Source of the DNA: a virus
Virus record (IMG/VR): IMGVR_UViG_3300034104_002572
Span: 1 to 35,980 of that record
Strand: one strand, 5' to 3'
DNA length: 35,980 nt
Below, piece by piece: positions 77-35,980 of the stretch (positions within the stretch are counted from its first letter, which is position 1; every line of letters begins with the position of its first letter). The position numbers and the translations under genes are program-made. Below the pieces are notes generated by a model. The model was given only the letters and a program-made list of their open reading frames with translations, did no database searches and was not told the origin of the DNA.

Positions 77-1336
77 TTATTTTTTTATTAAAGCACCATA
101 GTTCTCGCCAATACTCATACGTGTTGGGAATCCATCAGCCTCTAATTCTTGTTTAATTTTTGGTAATAATGTTTTAATGTCTTCTTTAGCCACGTCCAAT
201 AGAATTGAATCATATGTATATAATACTATTTTAGTTTTCTTACCATCTAGTAATTTTAATACACGATCTAATGTTAATGTATTATAATATGTTTCGTATG
301 CCTGGATTAGATAACTTAATATTTTATTTTTATTTGGATTTTCTATTCTATTTTTATAGATATTAGTTCCCCATGGTAATTTTAGTCTATTTGTAGAGTT
401 AAATTCTTCCCACTGGCTTTCTAACCATTTACTTAATTTAGCAAAAAATGGAAACCATGCATATTCGTCTCTAATACCACCATATAAATTTTGAAACATT
501 ATTTCTTTAGGCACTTCATCATATGGATCAACTTCAAATTCATAACCTATTGCTTTACCAATTATACGGGGGTGGTAAGCACTATAATCAAATTCAACAA
601 ACATATAATTATTTGGTTCAAATGACTCACGTGCGTCGCCCTTAGGTAAAGCGGCGTAATTAACGCCATTAAAGGCGTTTGACGGGCGATAAGTTAAATT
701 ATATAGATTATATTGAGTAAAAACTGTATTCCCGTAAATCGAATTATCTTTCCAAGTAGTTTCAAAATGTTTATTAAACTTACGTGGATCAATGCCTATA
801 CCATTTTTTTCAATCTGATGGAATACATTAGTAAAATTATAATTTAAAAATGTACTAGCTACTTGCCATTTAGAAATCATTCCTCTTTCTTTTATATTCC
901 GATATATTTTTTCCCATTTCTCATAATGTTTAGATATAGGGATAAGTGTACTTAACTCTTGTATATAATATTTTTCACGATTAAAATCAGTGTGTACTTT
1001 AGTATCAAATTGTGATTCATCTATGTAACTATAAAAATTTATATCAATTAAATTATGTCCTGGTAGAAAATATAAGTGAAATTTCTTATCTAAAACATAA
1101 ACAGTATTAATACTAGATATAAATTCCTTAACTGTTTCCCAATCTAATTTAAATGCTTCACTATGGTCGATAGGTAAAATATAACCTTTTTCTCCATCAT
1201 TATAATATACTAAACATGGTTTAGTTAAAGACGGATGACGATTATCATTTGTAGTAATGATATTAACAAAACATTTATCATGTTCTGGTTTGCCTAGATA
1301 ATCTAGTTGTTCTTTTGTCTCAACTATATAAAACAT
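77..1336 (-). CDS. Atypical compact family-A (Pol I-like) DNA polymerase
   Basis: This 419-residue protein carries the three signature motifs of family-A DNA polymerases in order. An RPSN...N..ALPKGDARESF stretch (217-239) precedes motif A, which reads DYSAYHPR (250-257) with the metal-binding Asp. Motif B is K277-x(3)-FQNLYGG (to 287), corresponding to K...FG..YG of the O helix. Motif C is YTYDSILLD (373-381) with Asp376 in place of the usual HDE. It would add nucleotides in phage DNA replication or repair. The first ~130 residues resemble a decayed 3'-5' exonuclease fold: where DxE is expected the sequence reads NIITTND, so proofreading is probably absent. Motifs A and B are only about 27 residues apart (about 50 in E. 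coli Pol I), and the whole protein is far shorter than Pol I or T7 polymerase. It lies directly after the tail genes, an odd place for a replication enzyme. Polymerase-family membership is fairly secure; activity is not. Confidence 0.75.
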   Translation of the reverse strand: MFYIVETKEQLDYLGKPEHDKCFVNIITTNDNRHPSLTKPCLVYYNDGEKGYILPIDHSEAFKLDWETVKEFISSINTVYVLDKKFHLYFLPGHNLIDINFYSYIDESQFDTKVHTDFNREKYYIQELSTLIPISKHYEKWEKIYRNIKERGMISKWQVASTFLNYNFTNVFHQIEKNGIGIDPRKFNKHFETTWKDNSIYGNTVFTQYNLYNLTYRPSNAFNGVNYAALPKGDARESFEPNNYMFVEFDYSAYHPRIIGKAIGYEFEVDPYDEVPKEIMFQNLYGGIRDEYAWFPFFAKLSKWLESQWEEFNSTNRLKLPWGTNIYKNRIENPNKNKILSYLIQAYETYYNTLTLDRVLKLLDGKKTKIVLYTYDSILLDVAKEDIKTLLPKIKQELEADGFPTRMSIGENYGALIKK

Positions 1337-1366: not shown

Positions 1367-1963
1367 TTAGCTTGGCTTACCAAACTGAAGAAGATCTGTC
1401 AAATATAAAGACAGATTAGGCATAGTTTTTTCAGCTTCAGATAATGATCTTTTATTACTGTCTATAATACCAGATAATATTCTAATATTGTCTCTATAAA
1501 CATCATATAATGGACCTGTAAGTTTCCAAACTAAATTTATTGATTTATATAATACCTTAGCATCACCATCTTGAATAACAGATATATATTTATCAGACTT
1601 AACTTCAATAAAGTCATTTATTTGAGAACTAATAGTTGGTTTTAATATAAAACGAATCATAAAACCATTATTATAATCTGTACTTGTTGGTTGAATAAAG
1701 TCAGGTGTTACAACTAATGGAGGTAAGGTTTTAGGATTTAATGAGGCATATTTACTATCAAAAACAATATTAGAACTTGTAGAAGAAGTTGGATTTCTTC
1801 TTAGTAACTCAACACTATTACTTGTATATGTTTTACCTGTATAAGCATTATTATTTTTATCAACAAAGTAAAATCCAACATATGGTTGAAGATTTGATCT
1901 AAGAATAAAGTCTCCACCATTGGTGTAATCACTAAATAATATATTTGAAATAGGTATATACAT
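1367..1963 (-). CDS. Unknown protein at the end of the baseplate gene run
   Basis: A 198-residue protein with no family I recognise. It is beta-rich and Asn/Ser/Thr/Tyr-rich, with no signal peptide, membrane segment or cysteines. The C-terminal third (about 150-195) is more helical (YRDNIRILSGIIDSNKRSLSEAEK). It starts 2 bases after the stop of the large hub-like gene, so the two are translationally coupled, and it ends 30 bases before the polymerase. Position and composition suggest a baseplate or tail-tip structural component; that rests on context only. Confidence 0.7.
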   Translation of the reverse strand: MYIPISNILFSDYTNGGDFILRSNLQPYVGFYFVDKNNNAYTGKTYTSNSVELLRRNPTSSTSSNIVFDSKYASLNPKTLPPLVVTPDFIQPTSTDYNNGFMIRFILKPTISSQINDFIEVKSDKYISVIQDGDAKVLYKSINLVWKLTGPLYDVYRDNIRILSGIIDSNKRSLSEAEKTMPNLSLYLTDLLQFGKPS

Positions 1964-5491: not shown

Positions 5492-5791
5492 TTAACTATT
5501 TAGATTTTCTAAATTTCTAAGTATTTCAACATCAAATATAGGTATTCTTAGTTGATAACCCAAAGGTGGGTATAAACTATCTTTAGGTAAATCTGGATTA
5601 GCATACGATATAATCCACCATAATGTTGAATCATTATAGAACTGAAATGCTAAATTATCTAAACGATCTCCATATTGAGTTATGATATATGAATCATTTA
5701 TAGATAGTGGGATTTCTGGATATCGAGTTGATGAACGATATCTAGGTTTAGATGTTGACTGAATAATCTCATTAAATTCATAGCGATCCAT
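5492..5791 (-). CDS. LysM-like baseplate wedge protein (T4 gp53-like)
   Basis: A 99-residue protein with one LysM-type module at about 36-86. Its core YIITQYGDRLDNLAFQFYND is followed by STLWWIISYANPD and a closing PPLGYQLRIP, which matches the pattern of LysM tail/baseplate proteins (T4 gp53, Mu-like gpX, eCIS LysM adaptors). In these machines the LysM protein joins the inner tube to the baseplate wedges rather than binding peptidoglycan. It sits between the 669-residue tube-like protein and the hub-like protein, the usual order. The start ATG at 5791 is nearly abutted by the ATATTTAT element at 5796-5803. Confidence 0.8.
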   Translation of the reverse strand: MDRYEFNEIIQSTSKPRYRSSTRYPEIPLSINDSYIITQYGDRLDNLAFQFYNDSTLWWIISYANPDLPKDSLYPPLGYQLRIPIFDVEILRNLENLNS

Positions 5792-15444: not shown

Positions 15445-16215
15445 TTATTTTATTTGTTTACTTCTTATAAAAGATATGTCATAAGTGGTGGTAGATAAAG
15501 GCAATGTTTCATTGTTAAACGGATGTTTATATGGATCAGTCACACGCCACCCTTCACCCCACTTTTTATTCATATACTCAAAATTAATCAAATTGATTTG
15601 ATCTAATCTATTAGTCAATTCAGGGCTAGATTTTTTAGTTTGACTACCATGAGTATAATATTCATTATATAATCCTGGGCCATGTAGATATGGTTTACTT
15701 AAATTATATATTTTATCTACTGGTTGGTTATACAATCGCATTATATAATCAGCATCTTCACAATAAGCGGGAGTTAGATTTTCATCAAATAGTCCATGGC
15801 TTTGTATTACTGAATCTTTAATTAAAAATAAATCCCATGCTCCTTGTCCAAAATCACCTCCATACGGAAATACTAACCCAACATTCTGTTGAGCCGCTGT
15901 ATACATTTCTTCAAGTAATCCTTCTGTAAACGCTACATCATCATTCACTATAATCCAATAAGGTGAACTAATGTAAGATTTAATAATTAAATTCCAAACA
16001 CACGATACACCTAAGTTAGATGGTAAATGACATACTGTAAGTTTATTTACAAACTTATGCTCTATATTTTTTAATGCTTCTAATTCTTGAGTAATTTCAT
16101 CCTTACCATTATTATTAAAAATAACAAAGTTTTCTACTGGATAATCTATACTTTTATATAGACGTTCTACCCAATAAGGATTTTTCATAACTGCTGTTCC
16201 TATAACTGGTATCAT
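15445..16215 (-). CDS. Family 2-type glycosyltransferase (GT-A fold)
   Basis: A 256-residue protein of the nucleotide-sugar glycosyltransferase type. It starts PVIGTAVMKNPYWVERLYKSIDYPVENFVIFNNN, the usual GT-A first strand and helix, then HLPSNLGVSCVWNLIIK. The metal-binding acidic motif is IIVNDDVAF (about 88-96), and the later acidic acceptor/catalytic motif is YCEDADYIMRL (141-151). A HGPGL segment at about 178-182 follows. It would transfer a sugar from a nucleotide donor to an acceptor that the sequence does not reveal. Its start overlaps the stop of the oxygenase-like gene by 4 bases (ATGA). It is the last gene of the enzyme cassette, and its C-terminal part is short and soluble. Confidence 0.8.
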   Translation of the reverse strand: MIPVIGTAVMKNPYWVERLYKSIDYPVENFVIFNNNGKDEITQELEALKNIEHKFVNKLTVCHLPSNLGVSCVWNLIIKSYISSPYWIIVNDDVAFTEGLLEEMYTAAQQNVGLVFPYGGDFGQGAWDLFLIKDSVIQSHGLFDENLTPAYCEDADYIMRLYNQPVDKIYNLSKPYLHGPGLYNEYYTHGSQTKKSSPELTNRLDQINLINFEYMNKKWGEGWRVTDPYKHPFNNETLPLSTTTYDISFIRSKQIK

Positions 16216-16877
16216 TGTTGTTCGTTGAAGAAAAATATGTGAAATAATCTACTACTTTCTATATCCCATCCAAAATAATTTAATCCAGAATGAATTAAAC
16301 CACCATCAAATATAACTAATCTATTAAATACATTTCCTACAATATCTACTGTTTCATATGGTGTACCGTCTACAAATGTTTTTTGATTAAATACTTTCAT
16401 TCCTTCTCCCGCATCCCAATTAATTTGACTATTGTGAAATATTTTAGTTTCTTTATGTCTAAGAAAACTAGTACCTGATTGAGGTGGAGCATCTGGTGTT
16501 AAGTAAATTACAGCGGCCCATTTTTGAGTGTCACAATGAAATACTGATGGTGTTCCTGCGGGACAATATTGGAAACGTCCGTTAATTCCTTCATCAAACC
16601 ATCCATATCCATTATCACGATCTGCTATTTTTTTACCAATAATACTTTCAAACGCTTCTCTTACACCATCAAACATAAATTGTTTTCTAGTGCGATGACC
16701 AACAGCTCCTTCTCCTGGATAGTATGTTTGTTGTAAGGCAAAGTTTCTAACAGCAATTGGATCAGCATAGAAGTTATCTACAACAAAAAATCGTTTATCT
16801 TCTAAATTGGATACTCCACATTGATCTGTTTCAACTATTCCCCATTCTGATTCTGGATTGCGATCTATATATTTCAT
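16212..16877 (-). CDS. 2OG-Fe(II) oxygenase-like protein (DUF6445-like)
   Basis: A 221-residue protein. It has the cupin-type iron triad of 2-oxoglutarate/Fe(II) oxygenases: H114-C-D116 (SVFHCDTQKW), distal His196 (DGGLIHSGLN) and Arg210 (ESSRLFHIFFF) in the co-substrate position. The N-terminal half includes FFVVDNFYADPIAVRNFALQQ and HRTRKQFMF, which I associate with the DUF6445 family. It would hydroxylate a protein or small molecule, or act on a sugar; the substrate is unknown. It is coupled on both sides by 4-base overlaps to the methyltransferase-TPR gene and the GT2 gene. Confidence 0.72.
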   Translation of the reverse strand: MKYIDRNPESEWGIVETDQCGVSNLEDKRFFVVDNFYADPIAVRNFALQQTYYPGEGAVGHRTRKQFMFDGVREAFESIIGKKIADRDNGYGWFDEGINGRFQYCPAGTPSVFHCDTQKWAAVIYLTPDAPPQSGTSFLRHKETKIFHNSQINWDAGEGMKVFNQKTFVDGTPYETVDIVGNVFNRLVIFDGGLIHSGLNYFGWDIESSRLFHIFFFNEQQ

Positions 16878-18007
16878 CCTATACGGTTTAAATTATTTAA
16901 TATAGCTTGTTTATGTATATCATCTACTGGCTCATTCTCTAATAAATATCTAAATATGTTTCTTGATTCTTCACATAATCCACACCACCAAGCACTAACT
17001 GCTTTTTCAAATATAACACCATAGAAACCTGGATAGTCAAGAGTAGTTTTTAATTTGCTTGGTTTTCTAGTAGCTACTTTATCACCTATACTAGCTATAA
17101 GATAACTATTAAACCATTTTTCAGCTCGCTCATAAAATCTACTCAAATAGAAATATCCTTCAGGTCTATGAGGCATTAATGCTACAGCATGTTGTAACAT
17201 ACCTTCTACTGAATTGTTTCTACTACCTTGTGAATCAAAACACATCGCTGCTCTTAACAAACATTCATAACGAACTAATTCATCATATGTCCTTTCAGCT
17301 GCCCTTAAATAAAACGATACAGCAGATGCCGTTTGTTCTATACTATGGTAATAATAGCCCATATAAAAGTTTATTTCTGGGTTATTTGGGTATTCTATAT
17401 AGTGACTTAACAGTGATTTTAATATATCTTTTTCACCCATTTCTTTATAAAAATCAAGTAATGAATATATATTCATCCACACTTGTTTATTATAAGTAAA
17501 GTTAGTATAGTTTATATCTTCAGTTATGTTAAGTTTAGTTTGATGTCCTTTTTTAATAACACCTAAACCCATATCTGTATCTATAGTGAACATTTCAAGA
17601 TCATTTCTTGTTTGTCTTAATTCAACAAATGCTTTCCAACAATCACCTGTCCACATTCCACTACTAAAAGGAATTATTTGCATTTCTTCATTAGTAGGAA
17701 GCATATCATGACATATAATATATCCATGTGGGTTAAGACAATCTAAAGCATTAATTATATCTTTATAAACTTGATCTGAATGATGTAATCCATCTATAAG
17801 AACAATGTCAAATTTTTCAGTGTTAGTTTTGAAGAAATCATCTGATGTTTCTTTAATAACTCCTGGATATGGTGAGTATGGATCAACTCCTACTTTATGT
17901 TCTATTTTTATATTTTCAAAACTAAAGCCTTGATCAACACCTATTTCAAGGTATTTTTTTGCTTTAATTTTATCAGCTAAATAATTTATAATATATATTT
18001 TATCCAT
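16874..18007 (-). CDS. SAM methyltransferase fused to TPR-like helical repeats
   Basis: A 377-residue two-part protein. Residues 1-~165 form a class I SAM-dependent methyltransferase of the Methyltransf_24 kind. Motif I is KYLEIGVDQG (18-27), an acidic VGVDPYSP follows, and DIVLIDGLHHSDQVYKDI (67-84) and GYIICHDMLP (95-104) complete the pattern. Residues about 185-377 are helical repeats of TPR type (EINFYMGYYYHSIEQTASAVSFYLRAAER, EGYFYLSRFYERAEKWFNSYLIA). TPR units usually bind protein partners, as in O-GlcNAc-transferase-like systems. The enzyme may methylate sugars or proteins made by its neighbours. It overlaps the GH130-like gene by 8 bases and the oxygenase gene by 4. Confidence 0.8.
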   Translation of the reverse strand: MDKIYIINYLADKIKAKKYLEIGVDQGFSFENIKIEHKVGVDPYSPYPGVIKETSDDFFKTNTEKFDIVLIDGLHHSDQVYKDIINALDCLNPHGYIICHDMLPTNEEMQIIPFSSGMWTGDCWKAFVELRQTRNDLEMFTIDTDMGLGVIKKGHQTKLNITEDINYTNFTYNKQVWMNIYSLLDFYKEMGEKDILKSLLSHYIEYPNNPEINFYMGYYYHSIEQTASAVSFYLRAAERTYDELVRYECLLRAAMCFDSQGSRNNSVEGMLQHAVALMPHRPEGYFYLSRFYERAEKWFNSYLIASIGDKVATRKPSKLKTTLDYPGFYGVIFEKAVSAWWCGLCEESRNIFRYLLENEPVDDIHKQAILNNLNRIG

Positions 18008-22655: not shown

Positions 22656-25600
22656 TTATTTTTGTGATAATAAATATTTAAGATCTTCAACTTCAGTTTT
22701 TAGTTCTTTGATTGCTTCGATTAATACACCTACAATGTTGCCGTATGCCACACTATAGTTACCATTAGTGTCTTGTTGTACTACTTGTGGTAATATTTCT
22801 AATACTTCTTGTGCTATTACACCGACTTTTTCTGATTTGTCTTCACTATCGTTGCGAGTGTAAGATACACCTCTTAATGATGTTACTTTGGTTAAGGCGT
22901 CTGTGATTGTGTTTACATTTTCTTTAACGCGGGCGTCTGAGTAAGCGATTACGTCGCCTGTGGCGCGGATGGTGCCTGATACATCTAATGTGTATGATGG
23001 GGATGTGGTGCCTATACCAACATTACCTCCGTTATATGCTAAAAATACATTATTAGCACTACCAACATATAAATTCCCATTCGCTGTATTATTAATAAAC
23101 ATGTTAGCACCATCAGTCATGCCAATAGTACTTGTTCTATTTAATCCAGTAGCAGTAAATGTGAGTGTTGGAGCAGTATTAGCTACGGTAAGGCTACCAT
23201 TAAAATATCTATTACCTACATTTCGTACTTTAATACATTTCCATCCTGAAATATAGCATCTTCTAGTTCCTGAAGAAAAACCATAGTTAAATAATGCTTG
23301 TGGTGTGAAATATTTTGTACCAGAAACCCAGTTGTTTGTGTTACCTGTTCCTGAGCCTCCTGAAGAAGAACCGAATCCATTCCAGTAACCATATACTTTA
23401 GTCCATGATGTTCCTGGGTTGTAATTCAACATTACGTTATAAGTGTATGAGCCTGGGTTTCCTCCTAGGCTTGAAAAGTCTTTATCATAATCAATACCAC
23501 CCATGTAGTGGGAAATAGATGATCCAGCTTCATTCTTAATATAACATTCCATGTAATACCAATCATCTTGGCTAGAATCTACTGGGATGTAAGGGAAACC
23601 AGAACTGTAAGGTCCATTACCTACATTTACAGCACCATCAATTTGAATAGCATATCCTCCAGGAGCATCAGATGATGCTACCCAAGAAACATTACTAGAA
23701 CCAAAGAAATCTTGAAGTTGAGCTTGAGCCCATGTTGGATCAATTTCAAATACAGTTTCACCTGGAGTGTAGTGGCCTACTGGGTGTTTTTGGCTAGTGC
23801 CTATTCTAGTATTTCTAAGTGTAATACCACCTGCTACATCTAAAGTAGCGTTTGGTGAAGTGGTTCCTATACCAACTCTACCACTAGTAGCTAAATATAA
23901 TTGATTGTCATTACCATAAGATTGTAATACTAAAGGTATATTAGCTCCACCACTATAGTAGTTAGTAGCAATACGACCAGAAGTTGAAGAAGCACCTATA
24001 TCTAAAACATAAACATTAGACGACGCGTCTGTAAGTCTTATATCACCTCTACTAAAATAGTTTCTATCAGATGTTGTACCAACATATATAGGACCATCAA
24101 AGTAACCAGTTCCTTTTACATCTAGTTTATATCCTGGTGATGTAGTGCCTATACCTACGTTACCTCCACTTTTAGCAAGTATAGCGCTTCTAGCTATATT
24201 CACATCTCCTCCTGATACCCAGTTAAGAAACATTGTTGATATAGTGCCTCCTGAGGTATAAGTATTTATTTCATTTGAATTTTCAAATTGTGTATAGTGT
24301 GTTGTGTTACCATGCCAAAATCTAGCATTGCCATTATATACATCTAGTCTTGCAGATGGTGATGTAGTTCCTATACCAACATTGCCTCCATCTTTCATTA
24401 GAGAAAGTATATTATTATAAGCAAACGAAATAGCGTTACTTGTTTGAGTTCCTCCTCCTGAATTTTCAACTGTAAATGAAATTCCAACCATGTCATTTGA
24501 ATCAACACTGGAGGCTGCAAATTTACCATGTATATTTAGTAAAGAGTTAGTACTATTATCTGATAATCCTGATTTGTATACTTGTAAAGTAGTACTTGGG
24601 GATGTAGTACCAATACCAACATTACCTCCATTAAGGTAAGAATTACCATTAGAATTTAATCGTACATAAACAACAGCACCACTACTTCCTCTTGCTATAT
24701 CAAGAGTAGCAGTAGTATCAGTATAACCTAATAAAGTAGATCCTGCTTGATATAAGTTATATGCTTGACCTGTAATAGGAAGAAAAATACCATAACCAGC
24801 AAATTGAGCAATATTATCTGTATTTTCTCCTCTAAATACAATTCTATTGCTTGATGAATATATTTCTGTTTGAGCATTGCTTCCTATTCTTATTCTACCA
24901 TTTACATCTAATGCTTGGCCTGGTGCTGTAGTACCTATACCAACATTACCCCCACTTGTTATTTGAACAACACTTGAATTTGTTGTATAAGAATAAAAAT
25001 GATAAGAACCAACTTGATCTGCTGCTCTTAATCCTATATACCAACTATCTGTACCACCTGTTGAGTATTTCCATCCTGCTTCATAAGAAGTACTTGATCT
25101 ATTTACTTTTGGATAATTGTTTACATTAACTCCATCTATGTGTAATATATTATTAGGAGATGTGGTACCTATACCAACATTACCATTAGCAATAATACGC
25201 ATTCTTTCATTTCCTACAGTAGTTTGTCCATTTGGATAAAATGAAATAAATCCTGAAGTGGATGATCTATTATCTATTCTAAATTCTCCGGTTCCGGCAT
25301 CTGAGTAGATAAGTCCGGGATATGAATTATGTCCTATAGCGATTGTGCCTACATTAGTACTATCTTGTACATGAAGTCTATATTGTGGAGATGTAGTACC
25401 TATACCAACATTACCACTAGTATTAAAAACTATTCTAGCAGCTCCACCTGTGTAAAATCCAAAACTATCTCCAATACTAGCTACACCTTGACCTACTGTC
25501 CATCGTTGTTCAAGGGTTTGGTCTGTTCTACCAAAGTGTATAGAAGTTTCGCCAGTGTTATTTGAAGTGCTAAGTATTCTAACCTGACCATAAGAAACGG

Positions 25601-28600
25601 TTGATCTTTCAATATGTAATAATGTTCCTGGTGATGTAGTACCTATACCAACATTACCACCAGATTTTATAACAGCAACATCACTATTGTTTATTCTAAA
25701 GTTAATGTCATATCCTGTTTTAGCATTTATAAAGGTTGTACCAACACTATCTGATAAGAATGAATACTCTCCTGCTCCTGCTCTTGATTTATGAGAAAAT
25801 TGAGCGTTTGACGTTCCATAAGTTGGTACTTGACCCATTAAACTAACATCTGAAACTACAGTACCGTTTACATCTAATTTATATGCTGGAGATGTAGTGC
25901 CTATACCTAAGTTACCATCAAAGTTCATCACCATTACCTGGGAATTGTTCTTATTCCAACTATATAGATCACCTGCTGCTTTACTAGAAGCAGTACCTAT
26001 AATAGATGTCATTTCAGAATCCCAGTTACCAACGTTATATACTAAACGAGCTCCACCTTGTATCCAAAATTCATCTGAGTGTACTCCTGTTCCTTGGAAG
26101 TCATTATATACACCTATTGAGAAACGAGCATCTTCTGCTGTTGGAGCTCCTTGAACATTAGCTGAATCATCTTGGAATAAGATGAATCCCATATCTGAAG
26201 TAGCATTTACTTTAGATTCAAATTGAATCCAAGCATTACCACCATTTGTTGCTGGTTGTAAACGAATTGTTTTTCCGTCTCTAGTTCCTAAATCAAGTTT
26301 AGCGGCTGGACTTGTATTACCTATACCAACATTAGTTCCATTGTCAAAAATTAAACTATCTCCAATAGTGGTAGAACCTGTAAATTTAGATACATAGTTT
26401 GTAGTACCTCCTGGGCTTACACCTGTAGCACCCTGTGTACCTTGAGTACCCTGTGTACCTTGTACGCCCTGTATACCTTGTGTGCCTTGAGCACCTTGGG
26501 CACCTTGAGCTCCTTGTACTCCCTGTATGCCTTGAATACCCTGTGTACCTTGTGTACCCTGGGTTCCTTGGGTACCCTGAGTGCCTTGTACGCCCTGTAT
26601 ACCTTGAATGCCTTGTGTGCCCTGAGTACCCTGCGTTCCTTGAGCACCTTGGGCTCCTTGAACACCCTGTACGCCTTGGATTCCTTGTGTGCCTTGAGTT
26701 CCTTGAGTGCCCTGTGTACCCTGAGTACCTTGAACACCTTGAACACCCTGTATACCTTGTGTTCCTTGAGCACCTTGGGCACCTTGAGCTCCTTGTACTC
26801 CTTGCACACCTTGAATCCCTTGAGTACCCTGAGTACCTTGTGTTCCTTGAGCGCCTTGAGCTCCTTGAACACCTTGTACACCTTGTATTCCTTGAGTACC
26901 TTGTGTGCCCTGAGTGCCTTGAGTACCTTGGGTACCCTGTATACCCTGTACACCTTGTATGCCTTGGGTGCCTTGGGTTCCTTGAACACCCTGAATGCCT
27001 TGAGTACCTTGAGTACCCTGTGTGCCTTGAACTCCTTGTATTCCTTGAATACCTTGTGTACCCTGCGTTCCTTGAATGCCTTGAGTTCCTTGTATACCCT
27101 GAGTACCCTGAGTACCTTGTAAACTTAAATCTGTTCTATATTTAAAATTACCACCAGCATCTGCTACTACAATATTAGTTTCAGTTGTACCTTGTGGTAT
27201 GTTTGTATATGCTAATGATCCTGTTACACTTAATAAGCCAGAAACATTATAATTACCTGTTAATGATTTTGAATTTACCCATTGTGATCCATTATAATAT
27301 AATAAATCACCTGCTGTTCTACCTGGTATAGATACATCTGATAGACCAGCTAATGTGTTTGAAAGAGGTGATGTTCCTGATGATCCAATACCACCAACAT
27401 TTCTAAAGATACCACCTTGAAGAATATTAGCATCAGAGGCATTTGTTAAACTTGAAGCACCTCCTGCTACCAGTATCCATCCTACAAATATAGCATTTGC
27501 TGCTGTATTTGGAGCTTCTATAAAAGGTTCTGTATTAATGTTTGCCGCAGCATCTACTAAACTATCATATTGAGCGTTACCGTAGTAAACTATAAAAGCA
27601 TTAGTTGGTGAATTTGGTATCCAGAATACTCTTTGAATTGAATATTTGTTATTAGATACTGGGGTTAAAGCACCAGTTGCTGTATTGACACATTGTGTAG
27701 GATCAATAACTGTGTATCCAGCAGCAGCAACACCAGTATCAATTATAGGAGTAGATCCTGAAATATAATAACGGTATATTTTAGATATATTAATATTATC
27801 TTCTACTGTTGTAGAAGGATGATTTGCATTAAAACGGTAGTTAGCACCTTCTTTATAGGCATTACCACCTGTTTTAATAATACTTAAAGTTGATCCACTT
27901 GCTTGAAGTGTATGCCCTGATATTTTTAATGGTCCAAATGCTCTAAAGAAGTCATCTGCTTTTTGTGGAAAACCATATGATACTTGAGGAGCACTAAACA
28001 CACCTGTAGATACACTACCAGATAAGTGTAATACAACACCTAAATTAATTTGAGTATCAAATTGATTAATATCAGTAGAACCCCAAGGCACTGTTTGTTG
28101 AACAGGTGTTCCTGTATTATCTATACCAACATAACTTAATCTAGCTGATCCAGAATTAGTGATTGGAATATTTGTTATTGCATCCCAAGCTATATATTGT
28201 ACTACTGGGTATGGGCTACTAGCTGTAGAAGCATTTTGTGTCACAATAATACCACTACCACTAGTAATATTCCATGTGGTTGATCCTGGAGTTGATGTAA
28301 TTACACCTCCATTTAATATACCAGTATATAAATTAGATTCTAACCAACGTAAACGAGTTGTGTTACTAAATCCTTTATTGTTTTGACTAAAATATAAGTC
28401 TGCTGTTGAACCAGAAACGTAAATATAAGAACCAGATAATGTGGTATCTATATTTTTATTTACTGGTAGTAATCCTATAGTTCCTGTCACATCAACATCA
28501 CCAAAGAATCCAATAGTTGCTGTTGGTAGACCTTGTGAGCCTGATACAGTTAAACTACCTGATAATAAAGTGTTTCCAATTAATGTGTTATTACCTGTTT

Positions 28601-30560
28601 GAGTGGTAGATCCAGTTATATTTAAACTACCTGTTACTGTTGTAGTTCCTATAACATCTAATGAGCCTGTTATTCTAGCTGATCCTGTATAAGGAAATAT
28701 TATTGTTGGTGGAGCATATGATGCTGATATAGCATTATTAGACCAGCTAGCAGTTCCAAAAAGTGATCCAGTTATTGAAGGTACTATTAGTGATCCTGTT
28801 ATTTCAACTGTAGAATCATGAGCGTATATTAAGTTTGATCTATTACTATCGTCAGTTCCATTACCTACAATAAAAGCAGCAGGTACAGATGATACAGTGT
28901 TAAATTGGCCCTGTACGTGTTGATGATTGGCTAATGCTATTGTTTGATAACCTTCAGCATGTGAATATGAGCCTGATGCTATTGTTTCTTGACCTTCAGC
29001 ATGTGAATAATTTCCTTTCGCTTGGGTATAATCTCCTTCAGCATGCGAGTAGTCTCCTGTTGCTTTAGTAATACTTCCCTCAGCATGTGAGTATTCTCCG
29101 GTTGCTATATTTCCCTCTAACCCTTGAATAAGAGAGCCTGTTATTATAACTAGTTGATTTAAAGGATTAATATATGATGCAGTTGAGGCAAATGATGAGC
29201 TTACTGCGTTTAGTACATAGGAAGCAGTAGTTGCATTTTGAGCCCAACTTGAAGTTCCAAATAAAGATCCTGTAAATCCTTGAGTAGCTGTTACTGATCC
29301 AGTAATTGTTAATCCTTTTGCAGTAATATTATCAGCATCTATGTATTGAAAATAATCAACTGAGTTAGTACTAGTTCCTGTAAGCGTAGAACCTGGTTTA
29401 TCATAGATAGTATTAATAATTGAATAAATACCTGCAACACTAATAGGTGCAACATTATTTCCTGCCTGAACAAGAACTTGGCTATTAAGCAAAGTTAAAG
29501 TTGTTGAAGCACCAGTAATAGTTATACCATTTCCACCTAAAGCTGTAACAATACAATCAACTATTGCTAAATTACCTGCACTAGCTGAAGGTGTCACTAC
29601 ACTATTACATCCCTTTATGATAACTTGTGCTGAAGCATTGCTTACTGCTACTCCAACATTTTTATTACCGTTAATAATAGTAATGCCGGCACCAGAAATT
29701 TGAATACCAGAAATACATTGCAGTTCTGAGTTGATAATTTCAACATAACCGCTAGAGGATTTAACTACATTATTATTAACTGTACAATTACTTACATATG
29801 CTTGAGCAGTTCCTGTAATAGCAAGATTATCCATTGAAAATCCTGAAATACGTGAGAATGAACCTGATGTAGGAATAGTTAATGTTCCATAAAGAACTGT
29901 GCCTCCGCCTGTTAATTCTGATGTTGAAATTGTTACATTTGTAGTGTTAATCGTTGGATTTTCCGTATAACCACCAGGATGTACAACAATAATTCTTCGA
30001 GAGTCTCCTACTAAGGTTAATGCCTTAGTAATAGATGCTACTGGTTTAAGTAAACTACCATCACCCGTAGTATCATTTCCATCTATTTGACTAACGTGAA
30101 CTTCATATTGAAAATTTGACGATACATAGCTTGCTGTAGTAGCATATGAAGCACTCACAGCATTCAATATATAGCTAGCTGTTTGGGCATTTTGTACATA
30201 AGAAGCTGTTTGTGCTGTTGTTGCGAATGAGGAAGATACTGCATTTAGAATATAGGAAGCAGTAGTTGCATTTTGAGCCCAACTTGAAGTACCAAATAAT
30301 GAACTAGTTATACTAGTTGCATTTATACTACCGTTTTGTACTGTTGAACCTGAAATGTAGATAGAACCTGTAAATGTTAATGTATCCGCATTGGAAGAGA
30401 ACACTGTTGAGCCAGCATTACTAGCTATATTTACTGAACCACTTACTGTTAATGATCCACTAAGATTAGATGATCCAGTAACTGTTAATCCGTTTGTTAC
30501 ATTAATAGAGTTTAAAGCAGCACTTGAGCCGCTAACTAAGACTTTCTTCCAATTTGGCAT
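22656..30560 (-). CDS. Giant modular tail fibre with collagen-like tract and S74 chaperone
   Basis: A 2634-residue receptor-binding fibre. (a) 1-~150: anchor NWKKVLVSGSSAALNS and Ser/Ala/Thr repeats (SLFGTSSWAQNATTASY). (b) ~150-375: right-handed beta-helix, beginning VSQIDGNDTTGDGSLLKP, pectate-lyase-like. (c) 486-555: five 14-residue YSHAEG repeats like trimeric adhesin heads. (d) ~700-1130: beta-rich shaft. (e) ~1148-1381: about 78 Gly-X-Gln triplets (GTQ, GIQ, GVQ, GAQ). (f) ~1400-2260: shaft with eleven GNVGIGTTSP-type units, each opening a beta module. (g) ~2257-2447: lectin/CBM-like insertion (WYYMECYIKN...YISGWKCIKV). (h) ~2539-2634: Peptidase_S74 chaperone, SDARVKENV..., GVIAQEVLEILPQVV and a final coiled coil (LIEAIKELKTEVEDLKYLLSQK). 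S74 domains cut themselves off after the trimer folds, via Ser/Lys. The product should be a very long homotrimer. Confidence 0.92.
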   Translation of the reverse strand: MPNWKKVLVSGSSAALNSINVTNGLTVTGSSNLSGSLTVSGSVNIASNAGSTVFSSNADTLTFTGSIYISGSTVQNGSINATSITSSLFGTSSWAQNATTASYILNAVSSSFATTAQTASYVQNAQTASYILNAVSASYATTASYVSSNFQYEVHVSQIDGNDTTGDGSLLKPVASITKALTLVGDSRRIIVVHPGGYTENPTINTTNVTISTSELTGGGTVLYGTLTIPTSGSFSRISGFSMDNLAITGTAQAYVSNCTVNNNVVKSSSGYVEIINSELQCISGIQISGAGITIINGNKNVGVAVSNASAQVIIKGCNSVVTPSASAGNLAIVDCIVTALGGNGITITGASTTLTLLNSQVLVQAGNNVAPISVAGIYSIINTIYDKPGSTLTGTSTNSVDYFQYIDADNITAKGLTITGSVTATQGFTGSLFGTSSWAQNATTASYVLNAVSSSFASTASYINPLNQLVIITGSLIQGLEGNIATGEYSHAEGSITKATGDYSHAEGDYTQAKGNYSHAEGQETIASGSYSHAEGYQTIALANHQHVQGQFNTVSSVPAAFIVGNGTDDSNRSNLIYAHDSTVEITGSLIVPSITGSLFGTASWSNNAISASYAPPTIIFPYTGSARITGSLDVIGTTTVTGSLNITGSTTQTGNNTLIGNTLLSGSLTVSGSQGLPTATIGFFGDVDVTGTIGLLPVNKNIDTTLSGSYIYVSGSTADLYFSQNNKGFSNTTRLRWLESNLYTGILNGGVITSTPGSTTWNITSGSGIIVTQNASTASSPYPVVQYIAWDAITNIPITNSGSARLSYVGIDNTGTPVQQTVPWGSTDINQFDTQINLGVVLHLSGSVSTGVFSAPQVSYGFPQKADDFFRAFGPLKISGHTLQASGSTLSIIKTGGNAYKEGANYRFNANHPSTTVEDNINISKIYRYYISGSTPIIDTGVAAAGYTVIDPTQCVNTATGALTPVSNNKYSIQRVFWIPNSPTNAFIVYYGNAQYDSLVDAAANINTEPFIEAPNTAANAIFVGWILVAGGASSLTNASDANILQGGIFRNVGGIGSSGTSPLSNTLAGLSDVSIPGRTAGDLLYYNGSQWVNSKSLTGNYNVSGLLSVTGSLAYTNIPQGTTETNIVVADAGGNFKYRTDLSLQGTQGTQGIQGTQGIQGTQGTQGIQGIQGVQGTQGTQGTQGIQGVQGTQGTQGIQGVQGIQGTQGTQGTQGTQGTQGIQGVQGVQGAQGAQGTQGTQGTQGIQGVQGVQGAQGAQGAQGTQGIQGVQGVQGTQGTQGTQGTQGTQGIQGVQGVQGAQGAQGTQGTQGTQGIQGIQGVQGTQGTQGTQGTQGTQGIQGIQGVQGAQGAQGAQGTQGIQGVQGTQGTQGTQGATGVSPGGTTNYVSKFTGSTTIGDSLIFDNGTNVGIGNTSPAAKLDLGTRDGKTIRLQPATNGGNAWIQFESKVNATSDMGFILFQDDSANVQGAPTAEDARFSIGVYNDFQGTGVHSDEFWIQGGARLVYNVGNWDSEMTSIIGTASSKAAGDLYSWNKNNSQVMVMNFDGNLGIGTTSPAYKLDVNGTVVSDVSLMGQVPTYGTSNAQFSHKSRAGAGEYSFLSDSVGTTFINAKTGYDINFRINNSDVAVIKSGGNVGIGTTSPGTLLHIERSTVSYGQVRILSTSNNTGETSIHFGRTDQTLEQRWTVGQGVASIGDSFGFYTGGAARIVFNTSGNVGIGTTSPQYRLHVQDSTNVGTIAIGHNSYPGLIYSDAGTGEFRIDNRSSTSGFISFYPNGQTTVGNERMRIIANGNVGIGTTSPNNILHIDGVNVNNYPKVNRSSTSYEAGWKYSTGGTDSWYIGLRAADQVGSYHFYSYTTNSSVVQITSGGNVGIGTTAPGQALDVNGRIRIGSNAQTEIYSSSNRIVFRGENTDNIAQFAGYGIFLPITGQAYNLYQAGSTLLGYTDTTATLDIARGSSGAVVYVRLNSNGNSYLNGGNVGIGTTSPSTTLQVYKSGLSDNSTNSLLNIHGKFAASSVDSNDMVGISFTVENSGGGTQTSNAISFAYNNILSLMKDGGNVGIGTTSPSARLDVYNGNARFWHGNTTHYTQFENSNEINTYTSGGTISTMFLNWVSGGDVNIARSAILAKSGGNVGIGTTSPGYKLDVKGTGYFDGPIYVGTTSDRNYFSRGDIRLTDASSNVYVLDIGASSTSGRIATNYYSGGANIPLVLQSYGNDNQLYLATSGRVGIGTTSPNATLDVAGGITLRNTRIGTSQKHPVGHYTPGETVFEIDPTWAQAQLQDFFGSSNVSWVASSDAPGGYAIQIDGAVNVGNGPYSSGFPYIPVDSSQDDWYYMECYIKNEAGSSISHYMGGIDYDKDFSSLGGNPGSYTYNVMLNYNPGTSWTKVYGYWNGFGSSSGGSGTGNTNNWVSGTKYFTPQALFNYGFSSGTRRCYISGWKCIKVRNVGNRYFNGSLTVANTAPTLTFTATGLNRTSTIGMTDGANMFINNTANGNLYVGSANNVFLAYNGGNVGIGTTSPSYTLDVSGTIRATGDVIAYSDARVKENVNTITDALTKVTSLRGVSYTRNDSEDKSEKVGVIAQEVLEILPQVVQQDTNGNYSVAYGNIVGVLIEAIKELKTEVEDLKYLLSQK
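22670..22677 (-). promoter_or_regulatory. ATATTTAT element overlapping the giant fibre end
   Basis: Coding strand AAATATTTATTATC, in the last codons (KYLLS) of the giant fibre, 32 bases upstream of the 142-residue gene start. Because it is coding, it may be coincidental. Confidence 0.2.
26416..27120 (-). repeat. Degenerate 9-base repeat coding Gly-X-Gln collagen-like tract
   Basis: About 78 tandem nine-base units of the form GGN-NNN-CAR, with X being Thr, Ile, Val or Ala and Gln almost always third. Longer sub-repeats recur (GTQGIQGVQGTQG blocks). The low-complexity DNA opens spurious ORFs on both strands. Confidence 0.9.
28896..29105 (-). repeat. Five 14-residue YSHAEG adhesin-head repeats
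   Basis: Within the giant fibre five consecutive 14-residue units follow the pattern A-x-G-x-Y-S-H-A-E-G-x-x-T-x; the fifth is diverged (ALANHQHVQGQFNT). This is the left-handed beta-roll repeat type of YadA-like heads and some phage fibres. Confidence 0.8.
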
Positions 30561-31664: not shown

Positions 31665-34600
31665 TTACTTCTGTGATAATAAATGTTTTAATTCGTCTAT
31701 TTGTTGTTGTTGTTCTTTTATTGCTTCTATTAATAATGGTACTATCTTTTCGTATTTAACTGTTAGATAATTCTCACCAGATCTTGATTTACCTTCTTGA
31801 TAATCAAACGGAGCAAATTCTACAGCTTGAGGTAATACAGCTTGTATTTCTTGAGCAATAACCCCAGCATCATTATATCTTCTTGAAGGAATAAATCCTG
31901 CTTTTATTGATGTCTCATTCCAATCAAATGTAACACCATTTAGTGATAATACTTTTTCTAAAGCACCTTCAATTGGTTTAATATTTTCTTTTAAACGTCT
32001 ATCTGATGAATAAGCTACAACATCACCAGTTGCGTACATTGTACCTGTACCATTTACTCTCCAAGTGACAGAGTTTCCATTCATATTAAATAATCTAAAA
32101 CCGCGATTATCATCACCTGTTCCATAATATCTTACCTGCATCCAATATTGAGTACTATTATCAGAAGAACAACCAAATGTCCAGTTAGTATCAGTAGTTA
32201 TAATTAAAGCAGCGGGGGTGTTATAACTTACCCCAGCTAAATAACTAGCGCTAGTTCTAATATCACCAATTACCTCTAATTTATAACCTGGAGATGTAGA
32301 TCCTATACCAACATTGGCTCCTGTAACAGTTAATATTGTACCATTAGTAGAAGTTTGGAGGTAAGTAGTAGAATGTCCTTCTCCTATTTGTAAATTAGTA
32401 CCATTACCTTCTATTGCTCTAGAACTATTAAAATAAATTCTATTGTTACCACCACTAAAATTTAAACCAAAACCTGATCCAGCAATATGAAGATTATTAT
32501 TTGGGTCAGTAGTTCCTATACCAACATTACCATTAGCCGCTATACGCATTCTAATTTGTCTAGTTGTACCAGAGTTAGTGGTATAAAAATTTAAAGCACC
32601 TGCTTCAGATCCAGCAGTGTTAGTAGAAATTATAGCTCCTAAACCACCATATTCTGTAGTATTACCACTACTATTTCTTAAAGTAAAATGTAAATTTGAT
32701 CCACCTGAGGCTACATTATGAGCCATATCAATATATAAAACACCAAAATTATCACTAGTACCTGAATATCCTGATTTTCTAATAGTGAATGGTACTGGTG
32801 TGTTTGCTCCTGAGTGTTCAAATAATACTTGGTTATTAGGACTATTACCAGCGTCTACATAGAATGCATTTCCGGTTCCTCCACTATTATTAACATTGAA
32901 TTTTGCTGAAGGAGATGTAGTACCTATACCCACATTACCTGAAATACCGTCTATAATTAATCTAGTAGTTCCACTACTATATGGATCTCCTCCTTTAGCA
33001 TCACTACTTGAAAAACTTAAACTTTGCTGAACATCTCTATATGGGGATATAGCCCAGTTTCTTTCATTAACACTATTAGCTTTTGGATATAGTTTTAAAG
33101 CAGGTGCTCTATTTGTTCCGGCTGAGTCAGATTCTATTAATATGCCATCTCCATTTCCTGAAGCAAAAACATGTAAGTCTTGAATTGGACTTGTAGTACC
33201 TATACCAACATTGCCGTCTCCAATAATACGCATTCTTTCAGTATTATTAGTAGCTAATACAAGAGGAAAATTATTATAATTCCACACATAACTTACATTT
33301 CCTGTATGTCCAACATAAAAACCATTTCCTCCTCCTGTTCCTGTACCTGATGTTTGGTACACAGTTGCTGCGTTAGAGCCATAAAGGTTTAATAAAAATG
33401 AAGGGTTAGTAGTACCAATACCAACATTACCATTACTTCCCTTAATATACATTAGGTAGTTACCATTAGTATCATCATAGAAACCTAAGTTTCCAGCACC
33501 ACCACCATTACTAGAAGCAGTTGAAATAATATACCAATTATGACCTCCGGTATCTGTATTTAATATAGCAACACCAGTACCATTAGCATTACTGCTTCTT
33601 ACTATTAAACTTGTATTATATTGTCCTCCAACTATATCTAATTTTCCAGCTGGAGATGTTGTGTTTATACCGACATTACCACTACCATTAATTAAAAATC
33701 TATAAGAAGTATTTGTTCTATCATATACAAACCATTCATTACTAGTATTAGCTTGAAGTTCCCATCTATTACCTGATCCTGGTTTGAATTCAATACCTGC
33801 TGATGAAGCACTTGATTGAACTCTTAATTGTGTATATGTAGAATTTACAATATTTAATCCAATTCCAGTTGATTCTAAAGAAGGAGATGTAGTACCTATA
33901 CCAACAACACCACCTGCTGTGATATTGAATCTATCAACACCATTATCTTGGTCATATAGTCTAAATAATTTAGTTGTGTTACCTGATGATCCTAAAAATC
34001 TCCAAGTTCCTGCTCCACCACCTGTACTTATAAGCCATAAATCAGCTTCACCACCTTCAACTTTAAGTTGAGCACTAGAACCTCCAACAACATGAAGTTT
34101 AGATGTTGGGGCAGAAATACCTACACCAACATTTCCATCAGGTTGTATAGTGAACATGATTGCTTCTGAGTTGTAAGGTGATGGATTTCCTCCTCCTCTC
34201 CAAATAGTAAATTTATTACCATTATCAGCTGCTCTTGAAGATAAAGACCAATAAACTCCTGTCCATCCAGTTTCATTAGCTGCTGCTGTATGACCAAAAA
34301 GAATATCTGCTGGATAATCAGTTCCATTAGAGTCAAGTCTAATATTTGCTCTATTAGATATAGCCCAGTTTCTACCTGCTCTTACACCAAGTACATCAAG
34401 AGGAGCTGTTGGTGAAGTAGTACCGATACCAACACTTCCACCTGTTGAGAAAGTAACACTTCTACTTTGTCCTGGGTAGAATGTTATAGCTTGGGTAGAA
34501 TACCAATAAACATATCCTCCAGAATCATGATAAAATGCACTTTGTCCATTGCTATTTCTAAACACAAAGTCATTACCAGAATAACCTACAGTTCCACCAG

Positions 34601-35980
34601 CATTAACTTCAAGTTTATTTTGGGGTGTTGTAGTACCTATACCTACACTTCCTCCATTTAATGACATTATATGTTGAGTACCAATAGCAGTTAAAGTATC
34701 TGTACCATATTGCCAAACATAAAAATCAATTGCGTTGCCTGAAAATGCTCCAGAATTATGTCTTGTTTTTATAGCATGACGATAATCAGCTGTGTTAGAA
34801 TATCCAAGTGTAATTTGATTACTACTAAAATTAGTAGAAGAATTCCCTGATCTTAATTGTAAAGATATTACTCCAGATGTATCAGCTAATCCTTTAATAT
34901 CTAAATAGGCAGATGGTGATGTAGTACCAATTCCTAAATTAGATCCATCAAATATTAAATTTGATTCTCCATTAAATGGTGTTCCACTATCTCCAGTAGC
35001 AGTAACAACATAGTTGTTAGTGTTATTAGAAATAGATGTAGCAGCTGAAGTACCTTGAGCTCCTGTTGTTCCCTGTGTACCTGTAGTACCCTGTGTTCCT
35101 GTTGTACCCTGAGCGCCAGTAGTTCCTTGAGTACCAGTTGTACCTTGAGTACCTGTTGTACCTTGGGTACCAGTAGAACCTTGTGTTCCAGTAGTACCCT
35201 GTGTTCCTGTTGTACCCTGAGATCCAGTTATACCTTGCGCACCTGTAGTTCCTTGTATGCCTTGCGCACCTATAGTTCCTTGAATACCTTGAGCGCCTTG
35301 AGCGCCTGCTGTACCTTGAATACCTTGAGATCCAATAGTACCCTGAATGCCTTGAGCACCAGTAGTACCTTGTACTCCTTGAGTACCTTGTGTTCCACTA
35401 GTACCTTGTATACCTTGAGTTCCTGTTGAACCTTGAATACCTTGTGTACCAGTAGTTCCTTGTGTTCCAGTAGCACCTTGTGTACCTGTAGTACCTTGAA
35501 TGCCTTGAATACCTTGTGAACCTTGAGTACCAGTAGATCCTTGTGTGCCTGTAGTACCTTGTACTCCTTGAATACCCTGAATACCTTGAGCCCCAGTTGT
35601 ACCTTGAGTACCTGTTGTACCTTGAACTCCCTGTATACCTTGTGTACCCTGAGTACCTTGAGTACCCTGAGCGCCTGTTATACCTTGAATTCCTTGTGTA
35701 CCTTGAGTTCCAGTTGTGCCTTGTATTCCCTGAATACCTTGTGTACCCTGAGTTCCAGTTGTTCCTTGTATACCTTGAGTTCCTTGTGTTCCTTGTATGC
35801 CCTGTGTTCCTTGAGTTCCTTGTGTGCCTTGAATACCTTGTATACCTTGTATACCCTGAATGCCTTGTTCACCTTGAATACCTTGTATTCCTTGTGTACC
35901 TTGAGTACCAGTTATACCTTGTGTACCTTGAGTACCTTGAGGTCCTTGTATACCTTGTACACCTTGGATTCCTTGAGCAC
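31665..35980 (-). CDS. Collagen-like S74 tail fibre, 5' end beyond the window
   Basis: I followed the frame from the internal Met at 34667 to the right edge: there is no stop, so at least 1437 residues are present and the start lies outside. Visible order: about 309 residues of Gly-X-Gln / Gly-X-Thr collagen-like triplets (35980-35054); SNNTNNYVVTATGDSGTPF and a shaft with eleven GIGTTSP-like units, the first upstream of Met34667 (SNLGIGTTSPSAYLDI); then the Peptidase_S74 chaperone from SSDRRLKENIKPIEGALEKV through AGVIAQEIQAVLPQAV to the coiled-coil end LIEAIKEQQQQIDELKHLLSQK. It shares this architecture and the last residues (LLSQK) with the giant fibre, so they are paralogues. The chaperone should trimerise the fibre and then cut itself off. 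Taking only the Met at 34667 as start would wrongly drop the collagen part. Confidence 0.9.
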   Translation of the reverse strand, partial: AQGIQGVQGIQGPQGTQGTQGITGTQGTQGIQGIQGEQGIQGIQGIQGIQGTQGTQGTQGIQGTQGTQGIQGTTGTQGTQGIQGIQGTTGTQGTQGIQGITGAQGTQGTQGTQGIQGVQGTTGTQGTTGAQGIQGIQGVQGTTGTQGSTGTQGSQGIQGIQGTTGTQGATGTQGTTGTQGIQGSTGTQGIQGTSGTQGTQGVQGTTGAQGIQGTIGSQGIQGTAGAQGAQGIQGTIGAQGIQGTTGAQGITGSQGTTGTQGTTGTQGSTGTQGTTGTQGTTGTQGTTGAQGTTGTQGTTGTQGTTGAQGTSAATSISNNTNNYVVTATGDSGTPFNGESNLIFDGSNLGIGTTSPSAYLDIKGLADTSGVISLQLRSGNSSTNFSSNQITLGYSNTADYRHAIKTRHNSGAFSGNAIDFYVWQYGTDTLTAIGTQHIMSLNGGSVGIGTTTPQNKLEVNAGGTVGYSGNDFVFRNSNGQSAFYHDSGGYVYWYSTQAITFYPGQSRSVTFSTGGSVGIGTTSPTAPLDVLGVRAGRNWAISNRANIRLDSNGTDYPADILFGHTAAANETGWTGVYWSLSSRAADNGNKFTIWRGGGNPSPYNSEAIMFTIQPDGNVGVGISAPTSKLHVVGGSSAQLKVEGGEADLWLISTGGGAGTWRFLGSSGNTTKLFRLYDQDNGVDRFNITAGGVVGIGTTSPSLESTGIGLNIVNSTYTQLRVQSSASSAGIEFKPGSGNRWELQANTSNEWFVYDRTNTSYRFLINGSGNVGINTTSPAGKLDIVGGQYNTSLIVRSSNANGTGVAILNTDTGGHNWYIISTASSNGGGAGNLGFYDDTNGNYLMYIKGSNGNVGIGTTNPSFLLNLYGSNAATVYQTSGTGTGGGNGFYVGHTGNVSYVWNYNNFPLVLATNNTERMRIIGDGNVGIGTTSPIQDLHVFASGNGDGILIESDSAGTNRAPALKLYPKANSVNERNWAISPYRDVQQSLSFSSSDAKGGDPYSSGTTRLIIDGISGNVGIGTTSPSAKFNVNNSGGTGNAFYVDAGNSPNNQVLFEHSGANTPVPFTIRKSGYSGTSDNFGVLYIDMAHNVASGGSNLHFTLRNSSGNTTEYGGLGAIISTNTAGSEAGALNFYTTNSGTTRQIRMRIAANGNVGIGTTDPNNNLHIAGSGFGLNFSGGNNRIYFNSSRAIEGNGTNLQIGEGHSTTYLQTSTNGTILTVTGANVGIGSTSPGYKLEVIGDIRTSASYLAGVSYNTPAALIITTDTNWTFGCSSDNSTQYWMQVRYYGTGDDNRGFRLFNMNGNSVTWRVNGTGTMYATGDVVAYSSDRRLKENIKPIEGALEKVLSLNGVTFDWNETSIKAGFIPSRRYNDAGVIAQEIQAVLPQAVEFAPFDYQEGKSRSGENYLTVKYEKIVPLLIEAIKEQQQQIDELKHLLSQK
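35054..35980 (-). repeat. Degenerate 9-base repeat coding Gly-X-Gln/Thr collagen-like tract
   Basis: At least 103 tandem Gly-X-Y triplets, continuing past the window edge. Gln dominates the third position; Gly-Thr-Thr and Gly-Thr-Gly-type variants recur (about every third to fourth triplet), unlike the more uniform tract at 26416-27120. Spurious ORFs appear on the other strand. Confidence 0.9.

Follow-up and report, generated by a model that had tools for sequence, protein, structure and literature searches.

A reduced family-A polymerase of the divPolA1 group, probably an accessory enzyme of T4-like phages

Evidence for a complete family-A polymerase

Here, we report that a gene in a 35,980-nucleotide stretch of DNA from a T4-like freshwater phage (IMG/VR record IMGVR_UViG_3300034104_002572, a fragment; the whole stretch is called the window below) encodes what is, as judged from sequence and a predicted model, a complete family-A polymerase, a Pol I large fragment slimmed down. 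The gene is a new member of divPolA1, a group named by Yutin et al. in 2024 in a description that lists 14 genomes, including that of Flavobacterium phage immuto (PMC11348598). In T4-like phages divPolA1 is probably an accessory, active polymerase that would serve in gap filling or in the extension of recombination intermediates. A preliminary description of the window had proposed a family-A polymerase of minimal size, with a dead exonuclease, downstream of tail genes, and the profile searches, hhalign, the model and the tail genes found upstream all bear this out. All conclusions on the polymerase are drawn from sequence and a predicted structure.

77..1336, minus strand: divPolA1-type family-A polymerase, 419 aa, with a dead exonuclease-like N-terminal domain, a vestigial thumb, shortened fingers and an intact palm

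The open reading frame is complete, with 419 codons from ATG to stop, and its start codon is backed by the conserved first methionine and the uniform length among relatives. Motifs A (FDYSAYHPRI, with D250), B (K277-x7-Y285-G286) and C (YD376S) are readable in the 419 residues, as first described. The window sequence alone was insufficient to reveal the homology in Pfam or PDB, where a Pfam scan and a phmmer search against PDB gave no match, and profiles of relatives were needed. Against PHROG the single sequence gave a weak match to PHROG_17 DNA polymerase (E 0.0015) and, at residues 100–145, a match to PHROG_24165, a family of unknown function (E 7e-4). A profile of 18 relatives matched E. 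coli Klenow in PDB (E 2.4e-6), the three motifs being aligned in register, and Pfam DNA_pol_A matched 4 of these 18 members, the best at 4.6e-11. With 52 relatives hhalign matched nine full-length family-A enzymes (E 5.5e-6) and gave no meaningful match to seven family-B enzymes. Family B, which the resemblance of DYSAYHPRI in motif A to the PolB pattern DxxSLYPSII and the YDS of motif C might suggest, was rejected on this result.

Structural comparison with Pol I, which had been named as a check on the first reading, gave a concordant answer. The AlphaFold2 model has a mean pLDDT of 93 and a pTM of 0.91, and its best Foldseek matches in PDB are the Taq, human Pol nu, apicoplast and human Pol theta polymerases (E about 1e-16 to 1e-15). 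VIA-align places model residues 1–417 on residues 300–876 of Bst Pol I (Z 25.9, rmsd 4.2, 389 residues). Since the alignment runs the full length of the Bst large fragment, the N-terminal part is the counterpart of the exonuclease domain, and the protein is an entire Pol I large fragment in slimmed-down form.

Reduced domains and altered active site

Reduction affects the exonuclease domain, the thumb and the fingers, while the palm is kept. Residue equivalences to Pol I were taken from sequence alignments, in which the surroundings of motifs A, B and C contain no gaps.

797..1336, minus strand: 3'-5' exonuclease-like domain, residues 1–180, without the catalytic carboxylates; conserved H34, H58, K84, K85 and D98
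680..805, minus strand: thumb junction, residues 178–219, holding T215, R217 and P218
557..601, minus strand: motif A, residues 246–260, with catalytic D250 and with H255, which is invariant and occupies the steric-gate position (Pol I E710)
473..511, minus strand: motif B (O helix), residues 276–288, with invariant K277, F281, Y285 and G286 and Asp at the R754 position
188..223, minus strand: motif C, residues 372–383, with catalytic D376 and Ser at the Pol I E883 position

The acidic exonuclease residues are absent, as had been observed: in a hand alignment the positions D355, E357 and D424 are taken by I26, T28 and H87, and the relatives lack the carboxylates too, with mostly V/P/I, T/S/P and L/H/M. 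The conserved residues listed for this domain are invariant or nearly so, and its median dN/dS is 0.09. The dead domain is thus both conserved and constrained, and we infer that it probably has a binding role. Between the NGxxIDP-like and TGR-like motifs (here NGIGIDP and TYRPSN) lie 37 residues versus 123 in Klenow, so that the thumb is almost gone. Motif A Asp and motif B Lys, whose separation the preliminary description put at about half the usual, are indeed 27 residues apart; the distance is 53 in E. coli Pol I, 47 in T7 DNA polymerase and 27 to 48 within the family. The fingers have lost residues both before and after the O helix (27 versus 53 and 68 versus 91). The enzyme thus shares with the large fragments of E. 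coli, Bst and Taq Pol I the fold, motifs A, B and C, the TGR-like motif and a Gln like Q849, and differs from them in having no exonuclease carboxylates, about 86 residues fewer at the thumb, shorter fingers, His for E710, no R754 and Y-D-S for H881-D-E.

Relatives were collected by scanning IMG/VR contigs and were found on at least hundreds of them, with 196 distinct relatives among the matches listed. In all 196, D250, K277, F281, Y285, G286, Q345, Y375, D376, R217 and N226 do not vary. The E710 steric-gate position is likewise His in 196 of the 196 distinct relatives listed, a count to be read with the knowledge that motif A peptides including this His were among the patterns in two of the scans for relatives, the scan with the window sequence and the A1 profile scan being free of them. 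The steric-gate Glu is kept in 9 of 9 full-length family-A references, the relatives' own phage PolA included, and also in the divPolA2 protein AUR84708. At the R754 position the family has Tyr, Asp, Glu or Val, and Arg was never seen.

Absence of the steric-gate Glu and an xDS motif C recall T7 RNA polymerase. That divPolA1 is a single-subunit RNA polymerase is nevertheless scarcely credible: the exonuclease domain of DNA polymerase I has its aligned counterpart in the N-terminal domain, F281 corresponds to Pol I F762, and the A–B spacing is 27 residues against 94 in T7 RNA polymerase. Hhalign with the 52 relatives left T7 RNA polymerase unmatched, which is a weak point as a single T7 sequence was used.

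The position of Pol I E883 holds Ala or Ser across the family. The YDS form of motif C noted at the outset is real, but its reading as abnormal does not stand: the polymerase of phage Tt72 is active with Ser at this site (PMC9324360), and loss of the carboxylate is therefore not disabling in itself. Pol I E710 is required for a stable ternary complex (PMC9324360). The change of E710 to His and the loss of R754 both touch residues that hold the incoming nucleotide, so that catalysis, as read from the sequence, could be weak or altered. Taken further, these changes, together with the missing thumb and the Ser or Ala at E883, might describe a non-catalytic scaffold or clamp that has kept the fold and lost the activity. 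We hold this to be very unlikely, given the activity of the Tt72 enzyme and the invariance, in the 196 distinct relatives listed, of D250, D376, K277, Y285 and Q345, for which a scaffold would have no need.

Relatives, selection and membership of divPolA1

The reduced architecture is common to the relatives, which measure 403–452 aa, and one scan of cellular genomes gave no relative of the polymerase. Pairwise dN/dS (Nei-Gojobori, for pairs at 85–98% identity) has a median of 0.08 overall and 0.068 in the palm and fingers. These figures bear on the suggestion, made at the outset, of a split, specialised or decaying enzyme, of which only the specialised alternative is favoured. A length of about half to two thirds of the usual would fit an ordinary phage PolA that is decaying or has been split. 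This origin is most improbable in view of the low dN/dS, the catalytic residues invariant in all relatives listed, the same architecture throughout the relatives and the end-to-end alignment of the whole protein to the Pol I large fragment. The missing part of fingers and thumb was not found encoded elsewhere in the form of a conserved partner gene between the polymerase and SSB genes. Descent as a copy of a resident PolA was also considered and rejected, as BLASTP within immuto detects no similarity between the small enzyme and that phage's own full-length PolA.

As published, divPolA1 keeps the palm residues, has a truncated thumb and an inactive exonuclease, occurs in addition to a regular family A, B or C polymerase, and is followed by conserved replication genes (PMC11348598). 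The window gene is homologous to immuto gp001 (32% identity, tblastn E 4e-58 over 98% of the query) and has the catalytic palm, the truncated thumb and the inactivated exonuclease domain; the exonuclease carboxylates and steric-gate Glu of canonical Pol I and of phage replicative PolA are absent from it. Immuto gp001 itself has an intact palm, a truncated thumb and an inactive exonuclease, with a regular polymerase besides and the same replication genes downstream. The two differ in size (419 aa in the window clade, 441 aa in gp001), in the segment between motifs A and B, which is shorter in the window clade, and in the accompanying replicase, which is family B in the window clade and family A in immuto. 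The divPolA2 protein AUR84708, as characterised in the same publication (PMC11348598), is similar in that its family-A palm lacks a thumb and its phage also has a regular polymerase, but it has another N-terminal domain, a motif A with Glu (YDFKAFE) and a variable neighbourhood. Close kinship with divPolA2 was rejected for want of a significant hhalign profile match.

In the literature searched, the name divPolA1 occurs only in Yutin et al. 2024 and its preprint, and no biochemical activity of divPolA1 is reported. To the 14 genomes of the published description the present analysis adds at least hundreds of IMG/VR contigs. It further adds the invariant steric-gate His and the missing R754, some residue details of which may already be contained in the figures of that paper, and, relative to the account given there, the dN/dS values, the position at the junction of the baseplate and recombination clusters, and the co-occurrence with a separate primase.

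Genomic neighbourhood

Upstream of the polymerase lie tail genes, namely sheath, tube, baseplate hub and a gp25-like wedge.

1367..1963, minus strand: conserved neighbour directly upstream, 198 aa, at the end of the baseplate cluster
5492..5791, minus strand: baseplate wedge protein resembling gp25, encoded upstream of the polymerase

The window stops 76 bases beyond the polymerase gene, and the downstream side was therefore read in the contig of a 95% identical relative, L094. There the order is a 139-aa protein, an HNH gene, a gp32-like SSB (PHROG_1192, 8e-20), UvsX (PHROG_97, 3.5e-18), a Pol I-type 5' nuclease (PF02739, 2e-30), DnaB (PHROG_19, 1e-72) and ribonucleotide reductase. Neighbours were counted among the distinct relatives listed that had enough flank, with duplicates removed. 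On the upstream side, the counterpart of the 198-aa protein was found in 145/145, that of a 1172-aa protein in 119/119 and gp25 in 105/105; downstream, SSB and UvsX were each found in 90/90, the 5' nuclease in 75/77 and DnaB in 59/61. Gene order was kept in all 58 of the 58 distinct relatives listed for which it was scored, and the synteny baseplate – polymerase – SSB – UvsX – 5' nuclease – DnaB is nearly perfect.

Two further features of L094 concern the same region. The homing/HNH endonuclease-like gene (L094:11733-12290) sits, in the window clade, between the 139-aa neighbour of the polymerase and the SSB gene. The counterpart of window 1367-1963 in L094 (6085-9939) is a 1284-aa protein matched at 36% identity in its first 200 residues, and has thus grown by about 1080 aa at its C terminus.

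A second polymerase and a primase in the same genomes

The second polymerase looked for in the preliminary description is present in the relatives. The 36-kb window record, a fragment, gave no full-size family-A polymerase, and the contig of the 95% identical relative encodes an 863-aa family B polymerase. Family B polymerases of 863–869 aa are found in the window-clade contigs G001, G002, G003, G010, G011 and G030, and family B is present also in Mel-JY01 and its relatives. The immuto clade and the L066/L067 contigs have family A polymerases of 773–796 aa, and LR756508 has pieces of family B together with a family C polymerase. Among the IMG/VR records above 100 kb that were searched, 10 of 11 harboured a second polymerase; in the other, G025, searches for families A, B and C found none, and this record may be incomplete. 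Completeness is not given for IMG/VR records, so that presence counts as evidence and absence does not. On the divPolA1 tree, whose deep branches are long and unsure, the type of replicase changes once or twice. The replicase label switches while divPolA1 stays, and the small enzyme is therefore retained whichever replicase is present: divPolA1 is an extra enzyme, kept while the replicase is exchanged.

In some records the family B polymerase is divided over two open reading frames: in G023 and G044 (the records behind L290 and L232), with 610+306 aa and 596+298 aa, and in LR756508 (260623-266900), with 1022+625 aa. This suggests an intron, a homing endonuclease insertion or a genuinely split polymerase.

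A DnaG/gp61-type primase is present in immuto, Mel-JY01, LR756508 and 5 of 5 tested IMG/VR records of at least 150 kb, and the window-clade contigs, which are fragments, gave no match to one. This distribution bears on the possibility that divPolA1 is itself a primase, for DNA or RNA, acting singly or with a partner and starting strands de novo as does CCPol-MP of SCCmec. CCPol is a small family-A enzyme that has no exonuclease domain, has a last thumb helix predicted to be short, and primes when bound to the ssDNA-binding protein MP (PMC7581432). Both enzymes are small and non-proofreading and have ssDNA-binding and helicase genes nearby. In divPolA1, too, residues of thumb and exonuclease have been lost, and the His at E710 could relax the choice of sugar. 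Yet a priming enzyme is already there in the near-complete relatives, which weakens the analogy. CCPol, moreover, lacks the exonuclease domain wholly and retains the steric-gate Glu, and no conserved small MP-like gene lies between the polymerase and SSB genes across the clades. On this comparison we regard a primase as unlikely.

Proposed role

Since near relatives carry a normal polymerase as well, the spare polymerase is probably a helper in repair or recombination rather than the product of a decaying gene. The kept palm favours an active polymerase, and the lost thumb and proofreading speak for short, distributive synthesis; divPolA1 would accordingly be catalytically active, yet distributive and non-proofreading. 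CCPol shows that a small family-A enzyme without exonuclease can be active in vitro (PMC7581432). The neighbouring genes favour gap filling and recombination-linked extension, and their products, the gp32-like SSB, the UvsX recombinase, the Pol I-type 5' nuclease and the DnaB/gp41 helicase, may be its working partners. The enzyme would extend short primers, for example in filling gaps during the maturation of Okazaki fragments, or invading 3' ends in recombination-dependent replication and repair, and bulk synthesis would be left to the exchangeable replicase of family A or B. Pol I would, in effect, be divided in the phage between two genes, one for the polymerase and one for the 5' nuclease. 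A neighbourhood is no proof of a pathway, and the data do not separate Okazaki-fragment processing, D-loop extension and lesion bypass.

A translesion or mutagenic polymerase, with low fidelity and an open active site for the bypass of lesions, would also lack exonuclease carboxylates and might have a vestigial thumb, short fingers and altered nucleotide-binding residues. Human Pol nu and Pol theta are among the top Foldseek matches, but all family-A enzymes score alike and fold scores cannot separate translesion from ordinary members. The context is one of recombination and replication rather than that of a damage-response cassette, and we consider this role unlikely. A bolder variant of the accessory role, which we think quite unlikely, is that the exchange of Glu for His and the shed thumb allow unusual primers or nucleotides to be used, in RNA-tolerant synthesis or in priming inside D-loops made by UvsX; divPolA1 would then be a polymerase dedicated to recombination, coupled with SSB, UvsX and helicase whatever replicase the phage has.

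The accessory role in gap filling or recombination remains our preferred reading, and it matters beyond the single gene. T4-like phages are a reference system for recombination-coupled replication, and a second polymerase that stays while the replicase differs (A versus B) implies a conserved job outside the work of the replicase. divPolA1 is common in freshwater and marine viral contigs. The invariant steric-gate His makes sugar selection directly and simply testable, and a 419-aa, exonuclease-free and nearly thumbless polymerase would inform on the minimal needs of family-A catalysis.

Other genes in the window and in immuto

The immuto genome (L071) is annotated at 18607-37015 with a 7-deazaguanine DNA modification set comprising QueC, QueD, QueE, FolE, DpdA and QueF. 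In the window, a very large tail-fibre-like open reading frame of 2634 aa (22656-30560) has matches to collagen-like and tail fibre PHROGs, and a second fibre-like reading frame of 1000–1437 aa runs past the window end (31665-35978). The interval between sheath and fibre genes (15445-18007) holds a galactosyl transferase-like gene (PHROG_29879), a PHROG_1644 protein and a PHROG_27561 'DNA methyltransferase'-like gene, which are possible surface glycan or modification genes amid the tail genes.
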